From contig NZ_MUNZ01000101.1 of the NCBI RefSeq assembly GCF_002001205.1, forward strand, positions 62,001 through 126,000: 64,000 nucleotides of DNA, written 5' to 3'. This stretch comes from Hydrogenophaga sp. A37 (GTDB lineage: Bacteria > Pseudomonadota > Gammaproteobacteria > Burkholderiales > Burkholderiaceae_C). Shown piece after piece: positions 28-13,980 of the stretch; positions within the stretch are counted from its first letter, which is position 1, and the number at the start of each line of letters is the position of its first letter. The position numbers and the translations under genes are program-made. A model generated the notes under the pieces. That model worked only from the letters and a program-made list of their open reading frames with translations. It did not search any database and was not told where the DNA came from.

Positions 28-990
28 ATGCGTCGCGATACCTTCCTCAAATCCCTGGCCGCTCTGGCCGCTGCTGGTGCCTTGCCCAACGCTGCCTGGG
101 CCGCTGCCAACGTCAAGATGATGATTCCTGCCAACCCGGGTGGTGGTTGGGACGGCACGGGCCGCGCCCTGGGCGAAGCCCTGCGCGACGCCAAGGTGGC
201 CGACTCCGTGACCTTTGAAAACAAGGGCGGCGCGGCCGGTGCCATCGGTCTCGCCCAGTTCTACAACTCGGCCAAGGGCGACCCGAACGCCATGATGGTC
301 ATGGGTGCCGTCATGCTCGGCGGCATCATCACCGGCAAGCCGCCGGTCTCGATCACCCAACTGACCCCCATCGCCCGTCTGACGACCGAATACAACGTGT
401 TCGTGCTGCCCGCCAGCTCGCCGTTCAATTCCATGAAAGATGTGGTCGAAGCGCTCAAGAAAGACCCCGGCAGCGTCAAGTGGGGCGGTGGTTCGCGCGG
501 TTCCACCGAGCACATTGCCGCATCGCAGATCGCCCAGGCCGTGGGCGTGCCCGCTTCCAAGATCAACTACGTGCCGTTCCGTGGGGGCGGTGAGGCCGTC
601 GCCGCCATCCTGGGTGGCAACGTCACCGTGGGCGGCAGCGGCTACAGCGAGTTCCAGCAGTACATCGAGAGCGGCAAGATGAAGGCGATTGCCGTCACCG
701 CCGGCCAGCGCGTCAAGGGCATCGACAAGATCCCCACGCTCAAGGAGCAGGGCATCGACGTGGAGATCGGCAACTGGCGCGGTGTCTACGGTGCGCCCGG
801 CATCACCCCGGCCGAGCGCGATGCCCTGACCGACATGATTGTCAAGGCCACCAAGAGCAAGGCTTGGCAGGATGCCCTGGTCAAGAACAACTGGACCCCG
901 GCCCTGCTGACCGGCAAGGCCTTCGACGAGTTTGTTGACAAGGATTTCTCCGGCCTGCGCGCGACCATGGTTCGCGCCGGCATGGTCTGA
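28..990 (+). CDS. tctC: Tripartite tricarboxylate transporter substrate-binding protein (TctC/Bug family)
   Basis: Periplasmic solute receptor of a TTT transporter, delivering a carboxylate to the TctA/TctB membrane complex encoded just downstream. The 320-residue length is normal for the Bug family. Residues 1-25 form a signal peptide (RR near the N-terminus, an Ala-rich core and an AWA-A cleavage region). The mature protein starts with the family pattern 'MMIPANPGGGWDGTGR', a glycine-rich ligand loop. Later patterns also fit Bug proteins: 'NKGGAAGAIG' near residue 65 and 'VPFRGGGEAVAAILGG' near residue 182. The start is preceded by an ACGGAGAC ribosome site. A strong terminator separates it from tctB, which should give excess binding protein. 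The substrate (citrate, tricarballylate, a phthalate or other acid) cannot be told from sequence. Confidence 0.93.
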   Translation: MRRDTFLKSLAALAAAGALPNAAWAAANVKMMIPANPGGGWDGTGRALGEALRDAKVADSVTFENKGGAAGAIGLAQFYNSAKGDPNAMMVMGAVMLGGIITGKPPVSITQLTPIARLTTEYNVFVLPASSPFNSMKDVVEALKKDPGSVKWGGGSRGSTEHIAASQIAQAVGVPASKINYVPFRGGGEAVAAILGGNVTVGGSGYSEFQQYIESGKMKAIAVTAGQRVKGIDKIPTLKEQGIDVEIGNWRGVYGAPGITPAERDALTDMIVKATKSKAWQDALVKNNWTPALLTGKAFDEFVDKDFSGLRATMVRAGMV

Positions 991-1017
991 CCACCGCCCC
1001 GGTTCCCATGTGACACA

Positions 1018-1053
1018 GCGGCCGCGGCGTTTGCGTCGCGGCCGCATTTTTTT
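1018..1053 (+). terminator. Intrinsic terminator between tctC and tctB
   Basis: A perfect 9-bp stem, GCGGCCGCG pairing with CGCGGCCGC, with a 10-nt loop is followed by seven T residues. It lies 28 bases after the tctC stop codon and 17 bases before tctB starts. It probably stops part of the transcripts so that the periplasmic receptor is made in excess of the membrane subunits. Confidence 0.85.
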
Positions 1054-1070
1054 CACGCAGGAGAGCGCCC

Positions 1071-1607
1071 ATGCAAACCCCCAACCCAGCGGCCAACGAG
1101 CCGCGTCCCGATCACCGCCCCGGCCAGCTGGCGCTGGGCATTGCCGCCGTGCTGCTGGCCGCAGGGCTCGCCTACGGCGCGGCGAACATCCCGTCGGACG
1201 CGGGCTACGCGGGCGTGGGCCCCGACTTCCTGCCCTGGGTGGTGTCGGCCGCGATGGGGCTGTGTGGCGTATTGCTCATCTGGGAGGTGCGCACCGGCGG
1301 CTACCGCAACATGGAAGAGCCTTCGGGTGCGGCCCGTGGTGACTGGCACGCCATGGCCTGGGTGTCGGCCGGTATTTTGGGCAATGCGGCGCTCATCACC
1401 ACCATCGGCTTCGTGCTGAGCTGCGCGCTGTGTTTCACGCTGGCGGTGCGCGGCCTGCGCATCAGCGAAGGCAAGCCCTCGGGCAGTGGCATGCAGACGG
1501 TGAAAGACGTGGTGATCGGCATGCTGATCTCGGCGCCCACCTTCTGGCTGTTCACCAAATTCCTCGCCGTCAACCTGCCGGGCCTGACAGGCACCGGCTG
1601 GATCTGA
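1071..1607 (+). CDS. tctB: Tripartite tricarboxylate transporter small permease (TctB)
   Basis: Small four-helix membrane subunit of the TTT transporter, partner of TctA. At 178 residues it has normal family length. Hydrophobic segments sit near residues 21-38, 55-70, 94-126 and 145-165, a TctB-like distribution. The start has a GGAGAG ribosome site. It lies 30 bases upstream of tctA and after the tctC terminator, so tctB and tctA are probably translated from read-through transcripts. TctB proteins diverge strongly, so the assignment rests on size, topology and position. Confidence 0.88.
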   Translation: MQTPNPAANEPRPDHRPGQLALGIAAVLLAAGLAYGAANIPSDAGYAGVGPDFLPWVVSAAMGLCGVLLIWEVRTGGYRNMEEPSGAARGDWHAMAWVSAGILGNAALITTIGFVLSCALCFTLAVRGLRISEGKPSGSGMQTVKDVVIGMLISAPTFWLFTKFLAVNLPGLTGTGWI

Positions 1608-1637
1608 TTCGCACGACGGACCTGAAAGGAATTCACC

Positions 1638-3131
1638 ATGCTTGACACCTGGAACAATTTGCTCGGTGGTTTCATGACCGCCGGCACCCCCATCAACCTG
1701 CTATGGGCGCTGGCCGGCTGCGCGCTGGGCACGGCCATTGGCGTGTTGCCCGGCCTGGGCCCGGCCGTGACCGTGGCCATGCTGCTGCCGATCACCGGCC
1801 AGGTGGAACCCACCGCCTCGATGATCTTCTTCGCGGGCATCTACTACGGCGCGATGTACGGCGGATCGACCACCTCGATCCTGCTCAACACCCCGGGTGA
1901 AACCGGCACCATGGTGACCGCGCTCGAAGGTTTCAAGATGGCCAAGAACGGGCGCGCCGGCGCGGCCCTCGCCACCTCGGCCATCGGTTCTTTTGTGGCC
2001 GGCACGATCGCCACGATTCTGGTGACGCTGTTCGCGCCCTTCCTGGCCGAGTTCGCCGTGAAGCTCGGGCCGCCCGAGTATTTCTGCCTGATGCTGCTGG
2101 CCTTCACCACCGTGAGCGCGGTGCTGGGCCAGAGCACGTTGCGCGGCATCACGGCGCTGTTCTTCGGCCTGGCGCTGGGCCTGGTGGGCATGGACCAGAT
2201 CACCGGCCAGGTGCGGTACACCGGCGGCATCATCGAATTCATGGACGGTGTGGAGGTGGTACTGGTGGCGGTGGGTCTGTTTGCCGTGACCGAGGCGCTC
2301 TACAACGCCCTGTACGAAGGCAAGAGCGACGCCAGCCTGAACAAGATGAACAAGGCGCACATGACCAAGACGGAGTGGAAGCGCTCCTGGCCCGCCTGGT
2401 TGCGCGGCACCTTCATCGGTTTTCCCTTCGGCACCATCCCCGCCGGTGGCTCCGAGATTCCCACCTTCCTGAGCTACGCCACCGAGCGCAAGCTGGCCGA
2501 CCCTGAATACAAGAAGGAATTCGGTACCACCGGCGCCATCGAAGGCGTGGCCGGTCCCGAAGCCGCCAACAACGCGGCCGTGACGGCCACCCTGGTGCCG
2601 CTGCTCACGCTGGGCATCCCGACATCGGTGACGGCCGCCATCCTGCTGAGCGCACTGCAGAACTACGGCATCAACGCCGGCCCGCAGCTGTTCCAGACCT
2701 CTTCTGCCCTGGTGTGGGCGCTGATCGCCTCGCTCTACATTGGCAACGTGATGTTGCTGGTGCTCAACCTGCCGATGGTGGGCCTGTGGGTCAAGCTGTT
2801 GAAGATTCCGAAGGCGCCGCTCTACGCCGGCATCCTGATCTTTGCCACGGTGGGTGTGTACGGCATGCGCCAGAGCTCGTTCGACCTGTTCCTGATGTTC
2901 GGTCTGGCGCTGGTGGGTGTGGCATTGCGCCGGTTTGATTTCCCGACCGCCCCGGTGATCGTGGGCTTGATCCTGGGCCCATTGGCCGAGGCACAGTTCC
3001 GCAACGCCATGTCGATCGGCGAAGGCAATCTTTCGGTGTTCTTCCAGCGCCCCATGTCGGCCACGTTGCTGACGGTGGTGGTGTTGGTTCTGGTGACGCC
3101 GCGTCTGTTGGCCTGGCACCGGCGTTCCTGA
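1638..3131 (+). CDS. tctA: Tripartite tricarboxylate transporter large permease (TctA)
   Basis: Large inner-membrane permease (497 residues, about 12 helices) that moves the substrate into the cell using an ion gradient. The N-terminal part carries the conserved run '[21 protein letters not shown]' region (residues 31-51) and '[20 protein letters not shown]' (about 69-88), both TctA hallmarks. A second glycine/proline signature, '[12 protein letters not shown]', lies near residue 329. It follows tctB by 30 bases with an AAAGGA ribosome site. It is the last gene of the tctCBA operon; a dispersed repeat and the sigma-54 activator gene follow. Confidence 0.95.
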
Positions 3132-3228: not shown

Positions 3229-4722
3229 ATGCCCAGCATGACTGCCGACAACCGACTTCCCCGCGACGCCCAAAGCATCCTGGAGCTGGCCGCCCGGTCG
3301 ATGTTCGACCTGTTCGCCACCGCCAGCGAAGGCATGATGCTGGTGGACCGCAAGGCGCGGGTGGTCTGGATCAACGACCAGTACCGCCGCTTCCTGCCCG
3401 CCTTGGGTTTCGAGCGCGAGGAAGACTTCGTCGGCCACCCGGTTTCCAGCGTGGTGCAGAACACGCAGATGCACCAGGTGCTGGCCACCGGCAAGCCCAT
3501 CCTGATCGACCTGCTGACCAACAAGGCCGGTACCTTCGTGGTCAGCCGCATCCCGCTGCGCGACGACGCGGGCGAGGTGATCGGTGTGCTCGGCATCGTG
3601 CTGTTCGACCACCCTGAAACCACGCTGCAGCCGCTGATCGCCAAGTTCGCGCGGCTGGAGCAGGACCTGAGCGACGCCCGCCGCGAGCTGGCCAGTCAGC
3701 GCCGCACCAAATACACCTTCGCCAGCTTCGTCGGCACCAGCCCGGTGGCGCTGGAGGTGAAGCGCCAGGCGCGGCGAGCGGCGTCCTCCCACAGCCCGGT
3801 GCTGCTGCTGGGCGAAACCGGCACCGGCAAGGAGTTGCTGGCGCACGCCATCCACGCATCGTCGCCGCGCGCGGGGCGGCCGTTCGTGAGCGTGAACATG
3901 GCGGCCGTGCCCGAGGCGCTGCTGGAGGCCGAGTTCTTCGGTGTGGCGCCCGGCGCCTACACCGGTGCCGACAAAAAGGGCCGCGACGGCAAGTTCAAGC
4001 TGGCCGATGGGGGCACACTGTTTCTCGACGAGTTGGGCGACATGCCGATGGCCGTGCAGGTCAAGCTGTTGCGCGCGCTGCAGGAGGGTGAGATCGAGCC
4101 GCTGGGTTCCAACAAGTTGGTCAGGTTCGATGTGCGCGTGGTGGCTGCCACCTCGCGCGACCTGCAGCAGATGGTGCGCAACGGCCAGTTCCGTGAAGAC
4201 TTGTACTACCGCCTGAACGTGTTGCCCATCCGCGTGCCGCCGCTGCGCGAGAGGCGCGACGACCTGGCGCTGCTGGTGGAGGCGCTGTGCGAAGACATCG
4301 CCGCGCGCGGCGCCACCGCCCACTTGGATCTGGCACCGGCCGCGCTCGATCTGCTGGCTGCCCAGCCTTGGCGCGGCAACATCCGCGAGCTGCGCAACGT
4401 GCTGGAACAACTGGCCCTGCGCAGCGACTCGCCGCAGATCGATGCGCCGCAGGTGGAGCAGGTGCTGCGCGAATCAGGGCAGGAGCGCATCGAGCCACCG
4501 CTGGCACCGGCCGTGCGGGCTGCCCATGGTCTGCCCCAGTCACCGACCGTGGACGAACGGCCCTTGCCCGAGCAGATCGCTGAGCTGGAGCAGCGGGCCA
4601 TCGCAGCGGCCCTGGCCCGCACCGGCGGCAACCGGGCGGCGGCGGCGCGGCTGCTGGGCATCTCGCGCGCCAGCCTGTACGACAAGCTGGGTGGTATGTC
4701 TGAATTAAAGACGACTGTCTGA
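3229..4722 (+). CDS. PAS-containing sigma-54-dependent transcriptional activator
   Basis: Enhancer-binding protein that activates RNA polymerase-sigma-54 through ATP hydrolysis. Residues about 23-130 are a PAS-like sensory domain. Residues about 165-390 are the AAA+ domain with Walker A GETGTGKE, a GAYTGA form of the sigma-54 contact loop (GAFTGA is usual), Walker B GGTLFLDE and an RNVLEQL sensor region. The C-terminus (about 445-490) is a Fis-type helix-turn-helix ([19 protein letters not shown]). Its stop codon lies within a cluster of palindromes upstream of a -24/-12 promoter, so it most likely drives the ABC transporter/PHB depolymerase operon downstream. The PAS ligand is unknown. No strong ribosome site is visible; ATG at 3238 is an alternative start. 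Confidence 0.9.
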
Positions 4723-4766
4723 AAATTAGACAATTTCAACGGTGCTTGAATGTCTGAAGTTCAGAC
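4698..4766. promoter_or_regulatory. Three 15-bp palindromes, probable upstream activator sites
   Basis: Three sites share the left half GTCTGAA followed by one base and a right half ending in AGAC. They lie at 4698-4712 (GTCTGAATTAAAGAC), 4717-4731 (GTCTGAAAATTAGAC) and 4752-4766 (GTCTGAAGTTCAGAC, a perfect 7-1-7 palindrome). Their centres are about 141, 122 and 87 bases upstream of the start expected from the -24/-12 promoter, the usual range for enhancer-binding proteins. The first two overlap the end of the activator gene. Confidence 0.75.
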
Positions 4767-4818
4767 GTTTTGAGTGATGGTGGATCGCAAGTCATTGATT
4801 TCATTGCCCTGACCTCGC

Positions 4819-4834
4819 TGGCACGCTCCGTGCA
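4819..4834 (+). promoter_or_regulatory. Sigma-54 (-24/-12) promoter
   Basis: TGGCACGCTCCGTGCA matches the TGGCACG-N4-TTGCA consensus at all positions but one (G for the first T of the -12 element), with correct GG-to-GC spacing. Transcription should start near 4846, leaving a leader of about 43 bases before the binding-protein gene. Confidence 0.8.
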
Positions 4835-4888: not shown

Positions 4889-6076
4889 ATGATCACAACG
4901 ACCCGCCGCCTTGCGGTGATGGCCTTGGCCTGCAGCGCCACCCTCGGTTTCGCCCAATCCGGCGGTGAAATCCGCATCGCCCACGTCTACAGCAAGACCG
5001 GCCCGCTGGAGGCCTACGGCAAGCAGACCCAGACCGGGCTGCTGATGGGCCTTCAGTACGCCACGGGCGGCACCATGATGGTGGGTGGCAAGAAAATCGT
5101 GTTGATCGAGAAGGACGACCAGGGCAAGCCCGATCTGGGCAAGAGCCTACTGGCCGCGGCCTACGCCGACGACAAGGCCAACCTCGCCATTGGCCCGACC
5201 AGCTCGGGTGTCGCGCTGGCCATGCTGCCGGTGGCCGAGGAATACCAGAAGATCCTGCTGGTCGAGCCCGCTGTGGCCGATTCGATCACCGGCGACAAAT
5301 GGAACAAGTACATCTTCCGCACCGGCCGCAACAGCAGCCAGGACGCGATCTCCAACGCCGTGGCGCTGGATAAGGCCGGCGTGACCATCGCCACCCTGGC
5401 GCAGGACTACGCCTTCGGTCGCGACGGTGTGAAGGCCTTCAAGGACGCGATCAAGACCGCCAAGATTGCCCATGAGGAATACCTCCCCACCAGCACCACC
5501 GACTTCACCGCCGGTGCGCAGCGCATCATTGACAAACTGAAGGACGCGCCCGGCCGCAAGGTGATCTTCATCATCTGGGCCGGTGCCGGCAACCCGTTCA
5601 AGATCGCCGATCTGGACCTGAAACGCTACAACATCGAGATCGCCACGGGTGGCAACATCCTGCCGGCCATGGCCGCCTACAAGAACTTCCCCGGCATGGA
5701 AGGCGCGACGTACTACTACTTCGGCATCCCCAAGAACCCGGTGAACGAGGCGATGGTGGCCCAGCACTACACCCAGTTCAAGAGCCCACCCGACTTCTTC
5801 ACCGCCGGCGGCTTCAGTTCGGCCATGGCCGTGGTCACCGCGCTCAAGAAGACCAACGGTGACGCGAAGGCCGCCACGCTGATCAAGACCATGGAAGGCA
5901 TGAGCTTCGAGACGCCCAAGGGCACGATGACCTTCCGCAAGGAAGACCACCAGGCCATGCAGAGCATGTACCACTTCAAGATCAAGGTGGACCCGGCGTT
6001 CCCGTGGGGTGTGCCTGAACTCGTGCGGGAAATCAAACCCGCAGACATGCAGGTTCCGATCCGGAACAAGAAGTGA
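4889..6076 (+). CDS. Branched-chain amino acid-type ABC transporter substrate-binding protein
   Basis: Periplasmic receptor of the LivK/Peripla_BP_6 type (395 residues) for the ABC transporter encoded downstream. The signal peptide is residues 1-22 (TTRRLAVMALACSATLGFAQ). The mature region opens with 'GGEIRIAHVYSKTGPLEAYG', the usual first strand and ligand loop, and contains 'AIGPTSSGVALAMLPVAEE' near residue 97. The ATG at 4889 is chosen because a CAGGAGAC ribosome site precedes it and a signal peptide follows; longer in-frame reading would include the sigma-54 promoter leader. As first gene of an operon with a secreted PHB depolymerase, it may bind hydroxy acids or oligomers rather than amino acids; that is inference. 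Confidence 0.9.
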   Translation: MITTTRRLAVMALACSATLGFAQSGGEIRIAHVYSKTGPLEAYGKQTQTGLLMGLQYATGGTMMVGGKKIVLIEKDDQGKPDLGKSLLAAAYADDKANLAIGPTSSGVALAMLPVAEEYQKILLVEPAVADSITGDKWNKYIFRTGRNSSQDAISNAVALDKAGVTIATLAQDYAFGRDGVKAFKDAIKTAKIAHEEYLPTSTTDFTAGAQRIIDKLKDAPGRKVIFIIWAGAGNPFKIADLDLKRYNIEIATGGNILPAMAAYKNFPGMEGATYYYFGIPKNPVNEAMVAQHYTQFKSPPDFFTAGGFSSAMAVVTALKKTNGDAKAATLIKTMEGMSFETPKGTMTFRKEDHQAMQSMYHFKIKVDPAFPWGVPELVREIKPADMQVPIRNKK

Positions 6077-6083
6077 AGGGTTG

Positions 6084-6156
6084 ACCCCCTGCGCCGCTGA
6101 CACGGCCTCCCCCTGAAAAAGGGGGACAACACGAGCGGCCCGGCAAAGCCGGTTCC
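6084..6156 (-). repeat. Dispersed intergenic repeat, copy D
   Basis: On the minus strand it reads GGAACCGGCTTTGCCGGGCC, then a GCTCGTGTTG block and a C/G-rich hairpin. It is nearly the same as the element at 51778-51848. It lies between the binding-protein gene and the depolymerase gene. CCCCCT-GAAAA-AGGGGG inside it forms a hairpin that could adjust transcript levels within the operon. Confidence 0.6.
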
Positions 6157-6274
6157 GCTGTGTTTCTGGAAGGTGCTGCACTTGCTGCCTTCCATTTCTG
6201 CTCGTTCCATGAGGAACTCCCGGACACACGGGGGCCGGCGATGTTTTGCCCAAAACTCACCTGGAGACAAGCCA

Positions 6275-7771
6275 ATGAGGTTCGATTCGATGCGTGCGCT
6301 CGCCGCCATCGCGGCGCTTTCCTCTGGCACGGCACTGGCCGCCATCAACCTGCCTGCCTACAACGTGGACACCAGCCAGACCACGGTGTCGGGCCTCTCC
6401 GCGGGCGGCTTCATGGCCAACCAGCTGGGCATCGCCTACTCGGCGCTGTTCAAGGGCGTGGGCGTGTTCGCGGCCGGCCCCTACCTGTGCGCGGGCCTGA
6501 GCAACTACACGGCCTGCATGTACAACGCCAGCATTTCGAGCACGGCGCTGGCCAACATGCAGAACCGCATCGACAGCTACAGCGCCAGCGGCGTGATCGA
6601 CAACCAGTCGGCCATCGCCGGCCAGAAGGTGTACCTGTTCATCGGCGCCAGCGACACCACGGTGGGGCAGAACCCCGTCAACGCACTGAAGACGCAGTAC
6701 ACCAGCAACGGCGTGACGGCTGCGAACATGGAACACATGGTGCGCGGCGGCGCGGCCCACACCTTTCCCACCGACTTCGACAGCACCGGCAACAACGGCT
6801 GCGGCAGCGCCGCCTCGCCCTACATCAGCAACTGCGGATACGACGGCGCCAAAGCCGTTCTGCAGAAGTTTTACGGCACGCTGAACCCGCGCAACAACGC
6901 GCCCGCGGCCGGCAACTACATCGAGTTCAACCAGGGTGAGTTCGTCAGCAACCCCGGCATGGCCGCGACGGGCTGGGCCTATGTGCCGGCCAACTGCGCC
7001 AGCGGCAGCCAGTGCAAGTTGCACGTGGCGCTGCACGGCTGCCAGCAGAGCACCGACAAGATCGGCGACAGGTTCATCAAGAACACGGGCTACAGCCGCT
7101 GGGCCGACACCAACAGCATCATCGTGCTGTTCCCCCAGACGAAGATCGACAACACCAGCCGAAGCACGACGGCCAGCGGCTCGCTGGCCAACCCCAATGC
7201 CTGCTGGGACTGGATCGGCTGGTATGGCGGCAACTTCGGCCAGAAGGCCGGCACGCAGATGGCCGCCATCAAGGCCATGGTGGACCGCGTGTCCTCGGGC
7301 GGGGGTGGTGGCACCCCGACCCTGCCAGCGCCCACGGGCGTGGTGGCGTCCAGCCCGACCGACACCACCATGACGATCAGCTGGAGCGCCGTGAGCGGCG
7401 CCGACAGCTACAACGTGTACCGCAACGCCAACAAGACCAACGCGCTGCCGGTCACAGCCACCAGGTTCACCGACACGGGCCTCGCCGCCGCCACGCGGTA
7501 CAGCTGGACGGTGCGCGCGGCGGACGAAGAGGGCGTGGAGGGCGCGGCGTCCGCGGCGGCCTTGGGCACCACCACGGGCAGCCCGCCGCCGCCCGCCACC
7601 TGCTACACGGCCAGCAACTACGCCCACACCACGGCGGGCCGTGCTTACCAGTCGGGCGGCTACACCTACGCCAACGGGTCCCACCAGAACATGGGCCTGT
7701 GGAATGTCTTCGTCACCCGGACGCTGAAGATGACCGGCAGCAACCATTACGTCATCGGCACCTGCCCCTGA
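6275..7771 (+). CDS. phaZ: Extracellular short-chain-length PHA (PHB) depolymerase, type 2 catalytic domain with Fn3 linker
   Basis: Secreted serine esterase that hydrolyses extracellular polyhydroxybutyrate to oligomers and monomer. The signal peptide is residues 1-22 (ALSSGTALA). The lipase box GLSAGG sits near the N-terminus (Ser42), the permuted order of type 2 depolymerases. Asp127 (GASDTTV) and His162 (GGAAHTFPT) complete a plausible triad; LHGCQQS (253-259) fits the oxyanion region. A Gly-rich hinge (342-346) leads to a fibronectin type III module (about 350-432), then a Pro linker and a C-terminal substrate-binding domain (443-498) ending NHYVIGTCP. The ATG at 6275 is chosen for its signal peptide and a TGGAGAC ribosome site. 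It sits inside an ABC transporter operon, an unusual position that links polymer attack to uptake. Activity on a related polyester is possible. Confidence 0.9.
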   Translation: MRFDSMRALAAIAALSSGTALAAINLPAYNVDTSQTTVSGLSAGGFMANQLGIAYSALFKGVGVFAAGPYLCAGLSNYTACMYNASISSTALANMQNRIDSYSASGVIDNQSAIAGQKVYLFIGASDTTVGQNPVNALKTQYTSNGVTAANMEHMVRGGAAHTFPTDFDSTGNNGCGSAASPYISNCGYDGAKAVLQKFYGTLNPRNNAPAAGNYIEFNQGEFVSNPGMAATGWAYVPANCASGSQCKLHVALHGCQQSTDKIGDRFIKNTGYSRWADTNSIIVLFPQTKIDNTSRSTTASGSLANPNACWDWIGWYGGNFGQKAGTQMAAIKAMVDRVSSGGGGGTPTLPAPTGVVASSPTDTTMTISWSAVSGADSYNVYRNANKTNALPVTATRFTDTGLAAATRYSWTVRAADEEGVEGAASAAALGTTTGSPPPPATCYTASNYAHTTAGRAYQSGGYTYANGSHQNMGLWNVFVTRTLKMTGSNHYVIGTCP

Positions 7772-7796
7772 TGCAACGGACCACCCCAAGGAGATC

Positions 7797-8564
7797 ATGA
7801 GCCAGCTATCCACCCAGGACCTGACCGTCCGCTTCGGCGGCCACGTGGCGGTCAACCGCGTGACCTGCACTTTTCAGCCGGGCACGCTGACCGCCATCGT
7901 CGGCCCCAACGGGGCGGGCAAGACGACCTACTTCAACCTCATCTCGGGGCAGATCAAGGCCTCGGCGGGCAGCGTCCGCCTGAATGGCGTGGACATGTCG
8001 GGCCTGAGCGCACCGGCTCGGGCGCAGGCCGGGCTGGGTCGGGCGTTCCAGCTGACCAACCTGTTTCCCAACCTGAGCGTGCGCGAGAACGTGCGGCTGG
8101 CGGTGCAGGCGAGGGCGGGCGCGGGCTTGAACCTCTGGCGCATCTGGAGCGACCGCAAGGACCTGATGGTGCGCGCAGACGAGGTGCTCGAAGCCGTGGC
8201 GCTGGCCGACAAGGGCGACGCGCTGGCGTCGAGCTTGCCGCATGGCGATCAGCGCAAGCTGGAGGTCGGCATCCTGATGGCGCTGGAGCCGCAGGTGTTC
8301 ATGTTCGACGAACCCACCGCAGGCATGAGCGTGGACGAGGTGCCGGTGATCCTGAACCTGATCCGCCAGCTCAAGGCCGACAAGACCAAGACCATCCTGC
8401 TGGTCGAACACAAGATGGACGTGGTGCGCGAACTCTCGGACCGCATCATCGTGCTGCACAACGGCGAGCTGGTGGCCGACGGCGACCCGGCCACCGTGAT
8501 CGCCTCGCCGGTGGTGCAGCAGGCCTACCTCGGCATCAATCCCACCGAAGAGGTGACCTCATGA
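7797..8564 (+). CDS. ABC transporter ATP-binding protein, LivG type
   Basis: Cytoplasmic ATPase (255 residues) that powers the branched-chain-type permease. Walker A is GPNGAGKT near residue 37, the Q-loop region contains 'GLGRAFQLTNLFPNLSVREN', and Walker B is VFMFDEPTAGM near residue 165. The signature motif is unusual: the run 'SLPHGDQRKLEVG' stands where LSYGxQR is typical. That is tolerated in LivG-type proteins. Its stop overlaps the start of the next ATPase gene in an ATGA, implying translational coupling. An AAGGAG ribosome site precedes the start. Confidence 0.93.
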   Translation: MSQLSTQDLTVRFGGHVAVNRVTCTFQPGTLTAIVGPNGAGKTTYFNLISGQIKASAGSVRLNGVDMSGLSAPARAQAGLGRAFQLTNLFPNLSVRENVRLAVQARAGAGLNLWRIWSDRKDLMVRADEVLEAVALADKGDALASSLPHGDQRKLEVGILMALEPQVFMFDEPTAGMSVDEVPVILNLIRQLKADKTKTILLVEHKMDVVRELSDRIIVLHNGELVADGDPATVIASPVVQQAYLGINPTEEVTS

Positions 8565-9295
8565 GCAATCTGCTGACCCTTCAAGGGGTGCACACCCACA
8601 TCGGCGCGTACCACATCCTGCACGGCGTGGACCTCACTGTGCCCCAGGGCCAGCTCACCATGCTGCTGGGCCGCAACGGCGCGGGCAAGACCACGACGTT
8701 GCGCACCATCATGGGCCTGTGGCACGCGAGCCAGGGCCGCGTCACGCTGGCGGGACAGGACATCACGGCGCGCCAGACACCCGAGATCGCGCAGAGCGGC
8801 GTGGCCTACGTGCCTGAGAGCATGGGCATCTTCTCGGACCTCTCGGTGCGCGAAAACATGCTGCTGGCGGCGCGCGGCGCGCGCACGCTGGACGACATCG
8901 ACACCACGCGGCTCGAATGGATCTTCGGCCTGTTCCCGGCCATGAAGAAGTTCTGGAACCACCCGGCGGGCAAGCTCTCGGGCGGACAGAAACAGATGCT
9001 CGCAGTGTCGCGCGCCATCGTCGAGCCGCGCCAGCTGCTGCTGATCGACGAGCCCAGCAAGGGCCTGGCGCCCGCGATCATCCAGAACATGATCGAGGCC
9101 TTCCGCCAACTCAAGGCGGCGCAGACCACGATCCTGCTGGTCGAGCAGAACTTCAACTTCGCGCGCCAGCTGGGCGACACGGTGGCGGTGATGGACGACG
9201 GGCGCGTGGTGCACAGCGGCTCCATGGCCGAGCTGGCCGCCGATGAATCGATGCAGTCGAGATTGCTCGGCCTATCTCTGGGAGCCCATCAGTGA
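8561..9295 (+). CDS. ABC transporter ATP-binding protein, LivF type
   Basis: Second ATPase (244 residues) of the heterodimeric branched-chain-type importer. It has Walker A GRNGAGKTT near residue 37, signature LSGGQKQM near residue 139 and Walker B LLLIDEPSKGLAP near residue 161, followed by LVEQNF. It begins within the ATGA overlap with the LivG-type gene. An 85-base gap holding a dispersed repeat separates it from the first permease gene, the only sizeable break in the transporter part of the operon. Confidence 0.93.
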   Translation: MSNLLTLQGVHTHIGAYHILHGVDLTVPQGQLTMLLGRNGAGKTTTLRTIMGLWHASQGRVTLAGQDITARQTPEIAQSGVAYVPESMGIFSDLSVRENMLLAARGARTLDDIDTTRLEWIFGLFPAMKKFWNHPAGKLSGGQKQMLAVSRAIVEPRQLLLIDEPSKGLAPAIIQNMIEAFRQLKAAQTTILLVEQNFNFARQLGDTVAVMDDGRVVHSGSMAELAADESMQSRLLGLSLGAHQ

Positions 9296-9323
9296 CACCC
9301 CACGTTCATCACTTCGTGTATTC

Positions 9324-9380
9324 ACTGCCCCTCCAAGAGGGGCTGGCCTCCCTTGGGGCGGCCCGGCGGGAGGCCGTTCT
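9324..9380 (+). repeat. Dispersed intergenic GC-rich repeat, copy E
   Basis: Contains GCCCCTC-CAA-GAGGGGC, a 7-bp stem, followed by a GGCCTCC...GGAGGCC stem around CCTTGGGGCGGCCCGGCGG. The CCTTGGGGCGGCC block is shared with the elements at 3143 and 26706. It sits between the two ATPase genes and the two permease genes. Confidence 0.5.
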
Positions 9381-10367
9381 ATGACCACATTCAAAGACAT
9401 GGACTGGAAGCCCATGGCCCTGGTGCCGGTGCTGGCGCTGGCCGCCTTGCCCGCCATCGGCAGCCCCTCGACCTGGCTCACGCTCACCGTGGCCGGCCTG
9501 GCCATGGGCATGATCGTCTTCATCATCGCCTCGGGCCTCACGCTCGTGTTCGGCCTGATGGACGTGCTCAACTTCGGCCACGGCGTGTTCATCGCGCTCG
9601 GCGCCTTTGTGGCCACCACCGTGCTGGCGAGCATGGGCAGCTACACGACCTCGCCGAGCCTGTGGATGAACCTGCTGGCGCTGCTGCCGGCCATGCTGGT
9701 GGCGATGGCGGTGGCCGGCGCGCTGGGCCTGGTGTTCGAGCGCTTCATCATCCGCCCGGTGTATGGCATGCACCTCAAACAGATCCTCATCACCATGGGC
9801 GGCATGATCATCGGCGAGGAGATGATCAAGGTCATCTGGGGCCCCGAGCAGATTCCGCTGCCGCTGCCCGAGGGCCTGCGCGGCTCGCTGCTGCTGGGCG
9901 ACGCGGCGGTCGAGAAGTACCGCATCGTCGCGGTGCTGGTCGGCGCGGCCGTGTTCGCCGCCATGGTCTGGACGCTCAACCGCACCAAGGTCGGCCTGCT
10001 GATCCGCGCCGGCGTGCAAGACCGCGAGATGGTCGAGTCGCTGGGCTACCGCATCAAGCGCCTGTTTGTCGGCGTGTTCGTCGCGGGCAGTGCGCTGGCC
10101 GGCTTGGGCGGTGTGATGTGGGGGCTGTACCAGCAGACGGTGACGCCGCAGATGGGCGCGCAGGTCAATGTGCTGATCTTCATCGTCATCATCATCGGCG
10201 GCCTGGGCTCGACGCTGGGTGCGCTGATCGGCGCGCTGCTGGTGGGGCTGATGGCCAACTACACCGGCTTCCTGGTGCCCAAGGTGGCGCTGTTTTCGAA
10301 CATCGCGTTGATGGTCGCCATCCTGCTCTGGCGGCCGCAAGGCGTCTACCCGGTGACCAGCCGTTGA
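9381..10367 (+). CDS. Branched-chain-type ABC transporter permease, LivH type
   Basis: Inner-membrane permease (328 residues). The typical LivH run 'GLTLVFGLMDVLNFGHG' occurs near residue 51 and 'IIGGLGSTLGALIGALLVG' near residue 270. The start ATG at 9381 is preferred because upstream in-frame codons run through the LivF gene end and a repeat; residues from MTTFKDMDW onward look like a normal cytosolic N-terminus before the first helix. It is followed after 10 bases by the LivM-type gene. Its substrate is set by the binding protein of the same operon. Confidence 0.92.
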   Translation: MTTFKDMDWKPMALVPVLALAALPAIGSPSTWLTLTVAGLAMGMIVFIIASGLTLVFGLMDVLNFGHGVFIALGAFVATTVLASMGSYTTSPSLWMNLLALLPAMLVAMAVAGALGLVFERFIIRPVYGMHLKQILITMGGMIIGEEMIKVIWGPEQIPLPLPEGLRGSLLLGDAAVEKYRIVAVLVGAAVFAAMVWTLNRTKVGLLIRAGVQDREMVESLGYRIKRLFVGVFVAGSALAGLGGVMWGLYQQTVTPQMGAQVNVLIFIVIIIGGLGSTLGALIGALLVGLMANYTGFLVPKVALFSNIALMVAILLWRPQGVYPVTSR

Positions 10368-10377
10368 AGGCCTGACC

Positions 10378-11478
10378 ATGCTGCAAAGACTTCTCTCCAA
10401 AGACCTGCCCCGCAGCCGCTGGCTCGCCGCGCTGCTGGTGGTCCTGTTCCTGGGCCTGGCGTTCGCGCCGTTCCTGTTCCCGGGCGTCAAGGCGCTCAAC
10501 GTCGCGGCCAAGATCCTGATCTTTGTCGCGCTGGTCACCAGCTTCGACCTGCTGTTGGGCTACACCGGCATCGTGAGTTTTGCACACACCATGTTCTTCG
10601 GCATCGGCGCCTACGGCGTGGCGATCGGGCTGAGTTCGGTGGAGGAGGCCTCGTGGGGCGCGCTGTTGCTGGGCGTGCTGGGCGCGCTGGTGGTGTCGTC
10701 GGTGCTGTCGCTGCTGATCGGGCTGTTCTCGTTGCGGGTTCGGGCGATCTTCTTCGCCATGATCACGCTGGCCGTGGCTTCGGCCTTTCTCACGCTGGCC
10801 TCGCAGCTGTCGGACTTCACGGGTGGTGAAGACGGGTTGACCTTCAGCGTGCCCGAGCTGCTGGCGCCCGGGTTCGAGCTGAGCGAAACACCGCTGGTCA
10901 CGCCGTTCGGCGAGGTGAACCTCAACGGCAAACTCATCACCTACTACCTGGTGTTCTTGAGTGTCTGCGCCATCTTCCTCACCATCCTGCGCATCGTGAA
11001 CTCGCCCTTCGGCCGGGTGCTTCAAGCCATCCGCGAAAACGATTTCCGGGCCGAGGCACTGGGCTACCGCACAGTGATCTACCGCACGCTGTCCAACGTG
11101 CTCTCGGCCCTGTTTGCCACGCTGGCCGGCTGCCTGCTCGCGATCTGGCTGCGCTACAACGGGCCGGACACCTCGCTGTCGTTCGAGATCATGCTGGACA
11201 TCCTGCTGATCGTCGTGATCGGTGGCATGGGCACGCTGTATGGGGCGCTGATCGGCAGCGTGTTGTTCGTGCTGGCACAGAGCTACCTGCAGGACCTGCT
11301 GCGTTTGGCCGGCGAAGCGACCGCAGGCATTCCGGTGTTGCCCGCGCTGCTCACGCCCGACCGCTGGCTGCTCTGGCTGGGGGTGCTGTTCGTGCTGTCC
11401 GTTTACTACTTCCCCACCGGCATCGTCGGCAAGCTGCGCGAGCGCGCGGTGCTCGGAAAACTCAAGGGGCTGAAATGA
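10378..11478 (+). CDS. Branched-chain-type ABC transporter permease, LivM type
   Basis: Second membrane subunit (366 residues), pairing with the LivH-type permease. LivM hallmarks are 'ATSFDLLLGYTGIVSFAHTMFFGIGAY'-like sequence around residues 50-78 (here VTSFDLLLGYTGIVSF) and 'VVIGGMGTLYGALIGSVLF' near residue 282. The C-terminal residues are charged and cytosolic (KLRERAVLGKLKGLK). The stop codon overlaps the hydrolase start in ATGA, so the two are translationally coupled. Confidence 0.93.
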   Translation: MLQRLLSKDLPRSRWLAALLVVLFLGLAFAPFLFPGVKALNVAAKILIFVALVTSFDLLLGYTGIVSFAHTMFFGIGAYGVAIGLSSVEEASWGALLLGVLGALVVSSVLSLLIGLFSLRVRAIFFAMITLAVASAFLTLASQLSDFTGGEDGLTFSVPELLAPGFELSETPLVTPFGEVNLNGKLITYYLVFLSVCAIFLTILRIVNSPFGRVLQAIRENDFRAEALGYRTVIYRTLSNVLSALFATLAGCLLAIWLRYNGPDTSLSFEIMLDILLIVVIGGMGTLYGALIGSVLFVLAQSYLQDLLRLAGEATAGIPVLPALLTPDRWLLWLGVLFVLSVYYFPTGIVGKLRERAVLGKLKGLK

Positions 11479-12347
11479 ACGCCGTTGCCGCCCACACGCC
11501 CCGGTCGCGCTACCTCACATGCGAAGGCCGCGAGATCCACTTCATGGACTGGGTGCCGGCCCCCGGCGCGGCGGACCACGGCACGGTGATCGCCTGGCAC
11601 GGCCTCGCTCGCACCGGCCGCGACATGGATGCCCTGGCCGCGCACCTGAGTGCCCTGGGCTACCGCGTGATCTGTCCCGACACCATCGGGCGCGGCCTTT
11701 CGCAATGGAGCCCCGAGCCCAAGACCGAGTACTGCCTTGCCTTCTACGCGAAGCTGGCGCGCTCGCTGGTGAACCAGCTCGGGCTGGAGCGCTTCCACTG
11801 GGTCGGCACCTCCATGGGTGGCGCCATCGGTATGGTCTGCGCCGACGGGCCGCTGCGCGGGCGCATTCAGCGCCTGGTGCTCAATGACATCGGTCCCCAA
11901 CTGGCGCAGGCGGCCATCGAACGCATCCGAAGCTACGCCGGCAACCCGGCGTCTTTTGCCACGGTCGGCGAGCTGGAGTCGTACTTCCGAGCCATCTACA
12001 AGCCCTATGGCTTCATGAGCGATGCGCAGTGGACGCTGCTGACCGAGAGCTCCACACGCCGCCTGCCCGACGGTCGCGTGACGCCGCACTACGACCCGGC
12101 CATGGTGATGCAGTTCACCGAGCACCCGGCCGACTACGACCGCTGGGCCGAGTACGACCGCATCGACGTGCCGGTGCTGTGCCTGCGTGGAGCGGAGTCC
12201 GACCTGCTGCTGGCCGACACAGCCGAAGCCATGCGCGACCGTGGCCCGCGCGCGCTGGTGGTCACCATCGTGGGCTGCGGCCACGCACCGGCGCTGAACG
12301 TGCCGGAGCAACTGCTGTTGGTAAGCCGGTTTTTTGCGGGGCTGTGA
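11475..12347 (+). CDS. Alpha/beta hydrolase, possible hydroxyalkanoate oligomer hydrolase
   Basis: Cytosolic alpha/beta-hydrolase fold enzyme of 290 residues with no signal peptide. The nucleophile elbow is GTSMGG (Ser about 114), the acid is likely in GAESDLL (about 240) and the histidine in GCGHAP (about 275). It is the last gene of the transporter operon and overlaps it by four bases. With a secreted PHB depolymerase in the same operon, a reasonable inference is hydrolysis of imported 3-hydroxybutyrate oligomers. Sequence alone fits many esterases, so the substrate is open. A hairpin terminator follows. Confidence 0.8.
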   Translation: MNAVAAHTPRSRYLTCEGREIHFMDWVPAPGAADHGTVIAWHGLARTGRDMDALAAHLSALGYRVICPDTIGRGLSQWSPEPKTEYCLAFYAKLARSLVNQLGLERFHWVGTSMGGAIGMVCADGPLRGRIQRLVLNDIGPQLAQAAIERIRSYAGNPASFATVGELESYFRAIYKPYGFMSDAQWTLLTESSTRRLPDGRVTPHYDPAMVMQFTEHPADYDRWAEYDRIDVPVLCLRGAESDLLLADTAEAMRDRGPRALVVTIVGCGHAPALNVPEQLLLVSRFFAGL

Positions 12348-12474: not shown

Positions 12475-12960
12475 CTAGCCGAGGAGACCAATTGCACCAC
12501 CGACCGCGGCAGCTACGAGGGGGTGCTGAAGAAACTTTCGCAGCAGACCGTTTGCCTCCTCTTTCTGCTCCTGAGTTCCTGAAGACGACTCAACGGCAGC
12601 GATGAGATCTCGGACGGATTGCGTCACAACATTGTTGTCGCCGATTACCACATTCGTGGAGCCGGTGATGTTGATTGTCTTGCTTTGCACGAACTCAACC
12701 TTTAGCTCGGATTTCGCTCCGCCTTCGACTACGTCGATGCCAAAGGCGTTGATTTTTCCTATGCCGGCGTGAATATTACCGTGCGATCCTTGTCGTCTCC
12801 ATTCCAGGAGGTTGTGCTCGGCCAGTTGGTCCGCCACGTGAAGTATGTCCTGCTCTGAGAGTCCTCCTCCCAAGTCTTCCGGTTTTGGCAGCGACCACCC
12901 CTCTCGCCGCCGCGCGTAGTAGTACTCCAGAATGAATCCGCGAATTTCTGAGTCTTTCAT
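12475..12960 (-). CDS. Small accessory protein with winged-helix-like N-terminus, RHIM-like motif and hydrophobic tail
   Basis: No family name is recognised; 161 residues. Residues about 1-85 look like a small winged-helix domain (LSEQDILHVADQLAEHNLLEW, then a beta wing ending NAFGIDVVEG). Residues 95-115 contain STNVVIGDNNVVTQ, which resembles the RHIM/PP-type amyloid core (I/V-Q-I/V-G-x-x-N), with V in place of Q. Residues about 116-145 form an amphipathic helix, and 147-161 (HPLVAAAVGGAIGLLG) a short hydrophobic tail. A strong ribosome site (GAGAAGG) sits 5 bases before the ATG. It lies 56 bases downstream of a PLD-like gene in a segment of lower GC than its neighbours. A membrane-acting effector triggered by assembly is a guess consistent with this order. 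Confidence 0.8.
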   Translation of the reverse strand: MKDSEIRGFILEYYYARRREGWSLPKPEDLGGGLSEQDILHVADQLAEHNLLEWRRQGSHGNIHAGIGKINAFGIDVVEGGAKSELKVEFVQSKTINITGSTNVVIGDNNVVTQSVRDLIAAVESSSGTQEQKEEANGLLRKFLQHPLVAAAVGGAIGLLG

Positions 12961-13016
12961 TTTTGCCTTCTCGCGAAGTGAAATCGATGCTGCCCAAAGC
13001 CTGCGTTAGGAGCTTT

Positions 13017-13790
13017 TCATGGCACGTCGGCACTGGATGCCCACGAGCTATTAATTTGCTTGAGCAAAGCTATGCAATTTTCTGAATCCTCGATTTTGCT
13101 CAGCATAAACACCTTGTTTCCAGCATCCTTGATTGAACAGCCAATGTGCCAGCAAGCCGTGTCGTCTATGACCACGAATCGATCATGAAACTCGCGATTG
13201 GTGCGAACTGCAAGGGTAGCATTCTTATATTGGGCGCGCCAAGCCTTCATCTCGTTTGGAAAGTCTGGTGGAACTTTGGCCGTCAATACTTTGATTGACA
13301 TGCCGATCTTAAGCGCAGAGGCGAAGAGTTGGAGAACTGATTGATCGACATATGGGTCCACCACCGTGATGGATTTTTTTGAGGTCTGTAGGACAGCGCG
13401 GATCTCCAAGTAAGCATCATATTGGCTCCCCTTCGGGAAGAAAAGTTCCTTCACATTTGCGGAGTCGGGCGCCAATCGACCTTCATCAAGCCGCCAGCCG
13501 ATCGCGCGAAGTGCACTTTCAAGATGCTCCGATTTACCTCGCTTCACAAGCTCGTCGGTGACGACGTAAGCGGCTCTAAGGCCTGCTTCTTCATTCAGTT
13601 CGTTGAATGCGGCGTCTATTCTCGGCCTGTAAGCTGCGATTCGCATCTTGTTCGAGTAATCCTTCTGTGTTGTGAGAGTCCAATCAACAGGAATCCCAGC
13701 TCGATCGATGACCATGGGGACTTCGTAGCTATCGAGTTCGAGAACGATGCTGCGTAGAACACGCCATGGATGTAATTCGGATGTATGCAT
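13017..13790 (-). CDS. Phospholipase D-like domain protein
   Basis: Protein of 257 residues from the ATG at 13790; a TTG at 13817 would add nine residues, and neither start has a clear ribosome site. The C-terminal half has the PLD-fold signs: a VDPYVD strand-loop (about 144-149) and HDRFVVID (about 202-209), which fits HxK(x)4D with Arg replacing Lys, followed by CWHIGCSIKDAG. Only one such motif is present, so the enzyme would act as a dimer, as single-motif members of the superfamily do. Substrate could be nucleic acid or lipid. It pairs with the RHIM-like small gene downstream and both have lower GC than the surrounding genes, suggesting horizontal gain and perhaps a phage-defence role. 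Confidence 0.8.
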   Translation of the reverse strand: MHTSELHPWRVLRSIVLELDSYEVPMVIDRAGIPVDWTLTTQKDYSNKMRIAAYRPRIDAAFNELNEEAGLRAAYVVTDELVKRGKSEHLESALRAIGWRLDEGRLAPDSANVKELFFPKGSQYDAYLEIRAVLQTSKKSITVVDPYVDQSVLQLFASALKIGMSIKVLTAKVPPDFPNEMKAWRAQYKNATLAVRTNREFHDRFVVIDDTACWHIGCSIKDAGNKVFMLSKIEDSENCIALLKQINSSWASSADVP

Positions 13791-13980
13791 GAGATAGTGT
13801 TTTTTTTGGGGGTCCAACGTGCGTGTTAGTAGCGATATCCTGGAGCTGAGCAGTGCGAGACATCCTAAATGTGCGATTCGTACCCGAATCCAATTACATC
13901 AACGACATTCGCGCGAAGGGCCGATTCATGCATGGGTTCGAAGCAAGTGAGAGACTGCGGCGACGGTTACCTCGAATACC

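Follow-up and report, generated by a model that had tools for sequence, protein, structure and literature searches.

Little is so far known of how the breakdown products of polyhydroxybutyrate (PHB) enter bacterial cells. In extracellular PHB degradation of the Ralstonia pickettii T1 type, a depolymerase (PhaZ) works together with an extracellular 3-hydroxybutyrate (3HB) oligomer hydrolase; to our knowledge, this scheme includes no dedicated importer, and we know of no earlier ATP-binding cassette (ABC) importer for hydroxy-acid ester oligomers. For 3HB, uptake by the hbtABC genes (SPO2571-2573) of Ruegeria pomeroyi was shown with mutants, and a 2023 study (PMC10130141) describes hbtABC as the sole system for 3HB uptake confirmed in bacteria. 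We analysed a 64,000-nucleotide stretch of the genome of Hydrogenophaga sp. A37 (the window), in which the gene for a PHB depolymerase lies inside the gene set of a Liv-type ABC importer, in an operon closed by the gene for an alpha/beta hydrolase. Our reading, to which we give a probability of roughly two in three, is that this importer carries 3HB and short 3HB oligomers.

The operon is compact and runs on the forward strand from 4889 to 12347. An earlier reading of the window made without database searches (the sequence-only reading) had listed a receptor, a depolymerase, ATPases, permeases and a closing hydrolase at this place, and profile matches account for each of these genes, as follows.

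4889..6076, forward strand: periplasmic receptor of a Liv-type ABC importer, 395 residues (Peripla_BP_6, 174.5 bits)
6275..7771, forward strand: type 2 PHB depolymerase, 498 residues (NF050059, 369 bits; PF00041)
7797..8564, forward strand: LivG-type ATPase (PF00005; BCA_ABC_TP_C slightly below cut-off; best NCBIfam match UrtD/LivG, below cut-off)
8561..9295, forward strand: LivF-type ATPase (PF00005; best NCBIfam match UrtE/LivF, below cut-off)
about 9381..10367, forward strand: LivH-type permease, start codon picked by eye (PF02653, BPD_transp_2, 128.5 bits)
10378..11478, forward strand: LivM-type permease (PF02653, BPD_transp_2, 117 bits)
11475..12347, forward strand: alpha/beta hydrolase, 290 residues, proposed intracellular 3HB-oligomer hydrolase (PF00561, 67.7 bits)

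From the depolymerase to the hydrolase, neighbouring genes either overlap by 4 bp or are separated by gaps of 10-85 bp, and 198 bp lie between the receptor and depolymerase genes. With a type-I receptor, two BPD_transp_2 permeases and two ATPases, the Liv-type (HAAT) subunit set is complete within one operon; the N-terminus of the receptor resembles a signal peptide when inspected by eye.

The depolymerase lies above the curated cut-off of NF050059 (369 bits against 280, residues 26-339), and the alignment with PDB entry 2D80 (314 bits), presumably a Penicillium enzyme, covers the entire catalytic domain. Its SGLSAGG, GASDTTVG and AAHTFPT motifs align with 2D80, keeping the lipase-box Ser and the Asp and His letters that we take to be the catalytic triad of the family; in the paired entry 2D81, Ala occupies the lipase-box Ser position. 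NF050059 was used because the PF10503 score of this enzyme, 21.6 bits, falls short of the 23-bit cut-off; PF10503 was set aside as a marker, and its matches in the same genome are at three other places. The catalytic domain (residues 26-339) is followed by an FN3 domain (PF00041, residues 352-424) and a C-terminal domain (residues about 440-498) that matched no Pfam family at E 0.01. This last stretch is present in all 44 depolymerases that occupy the same operon position in relatives, compared with 5 of 14 located elsewhere, and may bind polymer. A signal peptide recognised by eye suggests that the enzyme is secreted.

A receptor scan of named genomes yielded at least 573 confirmed relatives, the best 80 of which were fetched as loci. 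The order receptor, ATPase, LivM was found in 73 of 73 fetched loci that contain all three, and further genes enter at two places. Slot 1, between receptor and ATPase, contains the depolymerase in 24 of 78 loci. Slot 2, between LivM and the closing hydrolase, contains a PF10605 3HB-oligomer hydrolase in 26 of the 68 loci with both ends (three representatives called by Pfam, the remainder by similarity); by eye, these enzymes carry an export signal. The core of receptor, ATPases, permeases and hydrolase is conserved, and the depolymerase is an optional addition with a set place in the order. Its slot order recurs across Comamonadaceae and Sphaerotilaceae, refuting the idea, allowed for in the sequence-only reading, that no relative shares the arrangement.

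Slot 2 also receives other genes. In 12 of the 68 loci, each of which bears the label Acidovorax, the genes for the 3HB-oligomer hydrolase and the closing hydrolase are separated by a second, different receptor gene (L010:18851-20111, L021:18768-20097 and L074:17052-18222 among them), which may widen the ligand range of the importer. One of the 68 loci, in Ramlibacter montanisoli, has a type B carboxylesterase that looks lipoprotein-like by eye (L042:16402-18277; PF00135, 301 bits). Tandem pairs of receptor genes were seen at the operon start in L012, L019, L030 and L031.

The family was additionally sampled with 150 genomes from 141 genera. The receptor is present in 83 of these genomes (77 genera), the type 2 depolymerase in 34 and PF10605 in 45, 44 of them above cut-off. 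The depolymerase lies directly 3' of the receptor, on the same strand and at a distance of 118-293 bp, in 21 of the 24 genomes with both, which confirms as non-chance the position between binding-protein and ATPase/permease genes that the sequence-only reading had pointed out. Of the 32 genomes that have PF10605 and the receptor, 25 carry PF10605 on the strand of the receptor and within 10 kb downstream of it. The non-adjacent cases comprise seven genomes with PF10605 and three with the depolymerase, and in G398 and G434 the receptor is near a contig end. Both enzymes occur together at 12 loci, with 21 x 25 / 83 = 6.3 expected (Fisher p 0.005, uncorrected for kinship). Across whole genomes, co-presence with the receptor is a weak association (p 0.05 for the depolymerase, p 0.01 for PF10605).

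To follow the history of the pairing, we used a quick tree (no bootstrap, some long branches) of 59 depolymerase sequences, 45 from the slot and 14 from other places, drawn from overlapping collections in which a few organisms are perhaps represented twice. The slot depolymerases fall in deep lineages set apart by long branches, and the slot label changes 6 times, with at least 4 changes forced by well-supported branches. Since the label changes at least 4 times, the pairing of depolymerase and receptor appears to have been kept or remade repeatedly, and a one-time insertion of the depolymerase was dropped as an explanation.

Source names label the receptor as branched-chain amino acid transport, and both its fold and the subunit set are of Liv type, as would be expected of an ordinary branched-chain amino-acid importer with a depolymerase as its chance neighbour. 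However, at the positions of LivJ T102 and E226, which we take to be the amine-binding residues, the receptor has V and I. Among its aligned relatives, the first position is V in 14 of 14 and the second I or L in 14 of 14, with S79 kept in all. By alignment, the receptor is 20% identical to LivJ and 19% to LivK, and the letters at the presumed amine-coordinating positions, judged at this identity, argue against a LivJ-like function. The curated amino-acid transport models are likewise all below cut-off, at 54.9 of 477 bits for the receptor, 184 of 362 and 187 of 441 bits for LivG and LivF, and 69 of 379 and 80 of 366 bits for LivH and LivM. Taken with the adjacency of the depolymerase in the family sample, this makes the amino-acid explanation very improbable. 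The sequence-only reading had suggested that the ligand of this Liv-type importer could be new; the replaced LivJ letters favour a ligand other than an amino acid, but Liv-type receptors for ligands other than branched-chain amino acids are already known (Giuliani et al. 2011, PMC3223731).

Fold comparison places the receptor among Liv-type relatives that bind amino acids, aromatic acids or urea, and because these differ in their ligands, the fold alone cannot name the ligand here. A solved structure is available for RPA4397 of Rhodopseudomonas palustris (PDB 3N0X), which is 68% identical to the receptor; the displayed part of the entry title names no ligand, and a term search for RPA4397 gave no match in the main text of the receptor screen carried out for that species (PMC3223731). 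The ligand-bound structures that come next include receptors for vanillate and 4-hydroxybenzoate (21-27% identity), and receptors 60-64% identical to ours adjoin AMP-ligase, decarboxylase or aromatic-type genes. Both observations would suit an importer for other carboxylic or aromatic acids, into whose operon the PHB enzymes were inserted for shared regulation and not for a shared substrate. We regard this as rather improbable, as two unrelated PHB enzymes occupy two fixed slots and occur together more often than expected, and as the core is accompanied by a 3HB dehydrogenase in bacteria of another class.

The closing hydrolase (PF00561, 290 residues, with no signal peptide visible by eye at its N-terminus) follows LivM in 66 of the 67 fetched loci that extend at least 1 kb past LivM, L069 being the exception. 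Compared with the 24 of 78 loci that have a depolymerase in slot 1, this marks the hydrolase, and not the depolymerase, as the steady partner of the importer. A paralogue in the same genome (39% identity over 303 columns) is divergent from a 3HB dehydrogenase gene at a distance of 152 bp, and that dehydrogenase (C129:137717-138472) is the only one in the genome above cut-off. We surveyed this arrangement in an order sample of 250 genomes (paralogue at E 1e-40, dehydrogenase at E 1e-90), in which 82 genomes have both genes and 23 of these, including our own, have them as divergent neighbours 89-282 bp apart. In Cupriavidus necator H16, H16_A1335 presumably also lies beside a bdh gene, and its product, PhaY2, is presumably intracellular. 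PhaY2/PhaZc (H16_A1335) is described as a 3HB oligomer hydrolase (PMC3430594), and its Azohydromonas counterpart as an 870-bp alpha/beta hydrolase gene (PMC11767486). The paralogue may belong to the PhaY2 family; through such paralogues beside 3HB dehydrogenase genes, the closing hydrolase would be linked indirectly to PhaY2/PhaZc, and it may cleave 3HB oligomers inside the cell.

The export signal seen by eye on PF10605 enzymes in many relatives would mean that monomer arises outside the cytoplasm there, and in Mariluticola a 3HB dehydrogenase gene stands beside the receptor gene; both fit an importer that takes only monomeric 3HB (or acetoacetate), with oligomers finished outside and the closing hydrolase serving another ester. 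This seems unlikely to us, given that the cytoplasmic-looking hydrolase is the steadier partner. Moreover, PF10605 had no match in the window's genome, nor in 14 control genomes, in the same search that matches 45 of 150 relatives, so that in Hydrogenophaga sp. A37 oligomers would need to be split inside the cell.

Receptor matches extend to other classes of bacteria: of 299 genomes sampled across the phylum, 16 have one at E 1e-60. On a plasmid of Mariluticola halotolerans (Devosiaceae), the activator, a 3HB dehydrogenase (TIGR01963, 370 bits, cut-off 307), the receptor, the importer and the hydrolase are encoded in line, with the dehydrogenase gene adjoining the receptor gene. In the alphaproteobacterial order that contains Mariluticola, the receptor search matched 43 of 297 genomes, and 20 loci were fetched. 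L198 and L216, from the family of Mariluticola (f119), have the activator, the 3HB dehydrogenase (64-68%) and a hydrolase orthologue near the core, although the activator and dehydrogenase genes are in part on the opposite strand. In L217 only the hydrolase orthologue is present, L214 and L215 have the activator (L215 also a CoA transferase, as in L117), L213 has neither activator nor hydrolase orthologue, and L203 is a partial locus. In a group from family f41, Bradyrhizobium-like at a guess, the activator was present in 4 of the 5 loci seen, two of which also have a CoA transferase. On a quick receptor tree from which L203 was left out, receptors linked to the hydrolase occur on either side of a well-supported split. 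The presence of PF10605 in relatives' operons and of a 3HB dehydrogenase by the core in Mariluticola and two of its relatives points to import of PHB products.

The control region upstream of the operon contains the following features.

3229..4722, forward strand: sigma-54-dependent activator with a PAS domain, likely regulator of the operon (PF00158, 226 bits; HTH_8, 51 bits; PAS_4)
4697..4713, forward strand: inverted repeat TGTCTGAATTAAAGACG, candidate activator site 1 (motif scan)
4716..4732, forward strand: inverted repeat TGTCTGAAAATTAGACA, candidate activator site 2 (motif scan)
4751..4767, forward strand: inverted repeat TGTCTGAAGTTCAGACG, candidate activator site 3 (motif scan)
4819..4834, forward strand: predicted sigma-54 promoter TGGCACGCTCCGTGCA (11/12 match to the -24/-12 consensus)

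The sigma-54 activator that the sequence-only reading had placed over the operon is thus present, just outside the range of the operon itself. The predicted promoter is the sole 11/12 match to the -24/-12 consensus on both strands of the 64 kb, and [TC]GTCT-N7-AGAC[AG] has three matches in the whole window, all within 4697-4767; a scan for sigma-70 promoters found nothing. The adjacent activator gene and the -24/-12 promoter sequence together mark the operon as probably sigma-54-controlled. Both motifs recur in the 78 of 80 fetched relatives that have 320 bp of upstream DNA (L032 and L061 were dropped). A promoter match of at least 10/12 lies upstream in 62 of these 78, compared with 0.6% of letter-shuffled upstream regions, and at least one strict repeat lies within 320 bp upstream of the receptor match in 27, six of which have two or more, compared with 0.0014 per kb elsewhere in the relatives' loci (neither comparison is corrected for kinship). 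In 59 of the 70 fetched loci with enough upstream DNA, the activator gene is found upstream of the receptor at no more than 2.5 kb. These observations suggest that the neighbouring activator controls the operon through the TGTCT-N7-AGACA repeats.

In the mechanism that we propose, the depolymerase would cut PHB outside the cell, and 3HB and short oligomers would reach the receptor and be imported to the cytoplasm. The closing hydrolase would then split the oligomers, a step most needed where PF10605 is absent, and the monomer would be oxidised to acetoacetate, by a known pathway, through the 3HB dehydrogenase whose gene lies at another place in the genome. The activator may use its PAS domain to sense a breakdown signal and bring about its effect at the repeats. 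At the level of sequence, the unit envisaged in the sequence-only reading, with polymer cut outside, products imported and oligomers split inside, is supported, and 3HB and its short oligomers are the probable ligands.

Several observations weigh against this interpretation. Within the family, neither PHB enzyme is present at the locus in 49 of the 83 receptor genomes, and of 8 further fetched loci with the label Hydrogenophaga, only 2 have a depolymerase; the sequence-only reading's view of the depolymerase as part of the importer unit stands as regards its recurrence in a fixed slot, but must be modified in that it is an optional part of a wider operon. No activator was found at 8 of the 70 fetched loci with enough upstream DNA. 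The binding-site comparison uses presumed LivJ residues at 20% identity. The closing hydrolase is below every NCBIfam cut-off, including that of the intracellular PHA depolymerase model NF050089 (46.7 bits, cut-off 300), and none of its 13 operon-type copies in the order sample is near a 3HB dehydrogenase gene, where paralogues alone occur. In other classes, no depolymerase or PF10605 was found at the 20 loci of the alphaproteobacterial order or at the 10 loci L117-L126. At 13 of those 20 loci (L199-L202, L204-L212), a different, BioH-like hydrolase follows the permeases, with no activator and no closer hydrolase match; an AMP ligase lies in the stretch at 10 of these 13, among which L212 comes from Mariluticola's own family. 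Four annotated cases of the AMP-ligase type include MaoC-like and enoyl-CoA hydratase genes, and this importer type could belong to a further 3-hydroxyacyl-CoA route or carry some other acid. Finally, two receptors of 61-64% identity stand beside decarboxylase or aromatic-type genes, as judged from gene names by eye.

The surroundings of the operon hold further genes. A complete tripartite tricarboxylate transporter set (TctC; TctB, 73 bits; TctA, 502 bits) lies at 28-3131, directly upstream of the sigma-54 activator. These genes were dropped as members of the unit; of 58 long loci from relatives, 26 have a TctA-like gene upstream, and its distance varies. Downstream, the next two genes (12475-13817) are on the opposite strand. 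The first had no Pfam or PADLOC match at the thresholds used, and the second matches the PADLOC candidate defence model PDC-S05 (112 bits), with a PLD-like Pfam domain just below cut-off (26.1 of 27).

If our interpretation holds, this importer would join a very short list of known uptake routes for the 3HB pieces of the bioplastic PHB, and a transporter that is named for amino-acid uptake and present in 83 of 150 sampled family genomes would be an entry gate for such pieces, marking bacteria able to use them even without a depolymerase of their own. The solved relative 3N0X makes the ligand question directly testable. A broader proposition, for which we see the arguments as evenly balanced, is that the operon is a polyester utilisation locus, doing for PHB what polysaccharide utilisation loci do for polysaccharides, with a fixed core of a Liv-type 3HB-oligomer importer and an intracellular oligomer hydrolase and with two slots for swappable secreted polyester enzymes. 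The swappable enzymes would be the type 2 depolymerase, the 3HB-oligomer hydrolase and, once, a carboxylesterase, mostly under a sigma-54 activator. In open-licence titles and abstract openings, a collection outside which most subscription journals lie, we found no report of the operon or of a Liv-type 3HB importer. What appears to be new here is the proposal that a Liv-type importer takes up PHB products, together with the slot architecture; the parts themselves are known.

Among described systems, the sigma-54 enhancer-binding protein PA2005 of Pseudomonas aeruginosa, which Harris and colleagues in 2015 reportedly found to govern (R)-3HB metabolism with RpoN, is of the same regulator type as the activator of the window; we know of no importer under its control. 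The closing hydrolase is similar in size to the Azohydromonas counterpart of PhaY2. The hbtABC genes of R. pomeroyi form a three-gene system, likened to our importer by the 3HB uptake described for it, with no depolymerase mentioned in the excerpts used. Both enzyme families of the R. pickettii T1 scheme, the NF050059 depolymerase and PF10605, occur in operons of relatives, whereas the genome of Hydrogenophaga sp. A37 departs from that scheme in that no PF10605 was found in it. With the LivJ/LivK-HMGF system of Escherichia coli, the importer shares the Liv-type receptor fold and the set of one type-I receptor, two permeases and two ATPases; it differs from that system in the replaced letters at T102 and E226 and in the PHB enzymes and the hydrolase that its operon includes.

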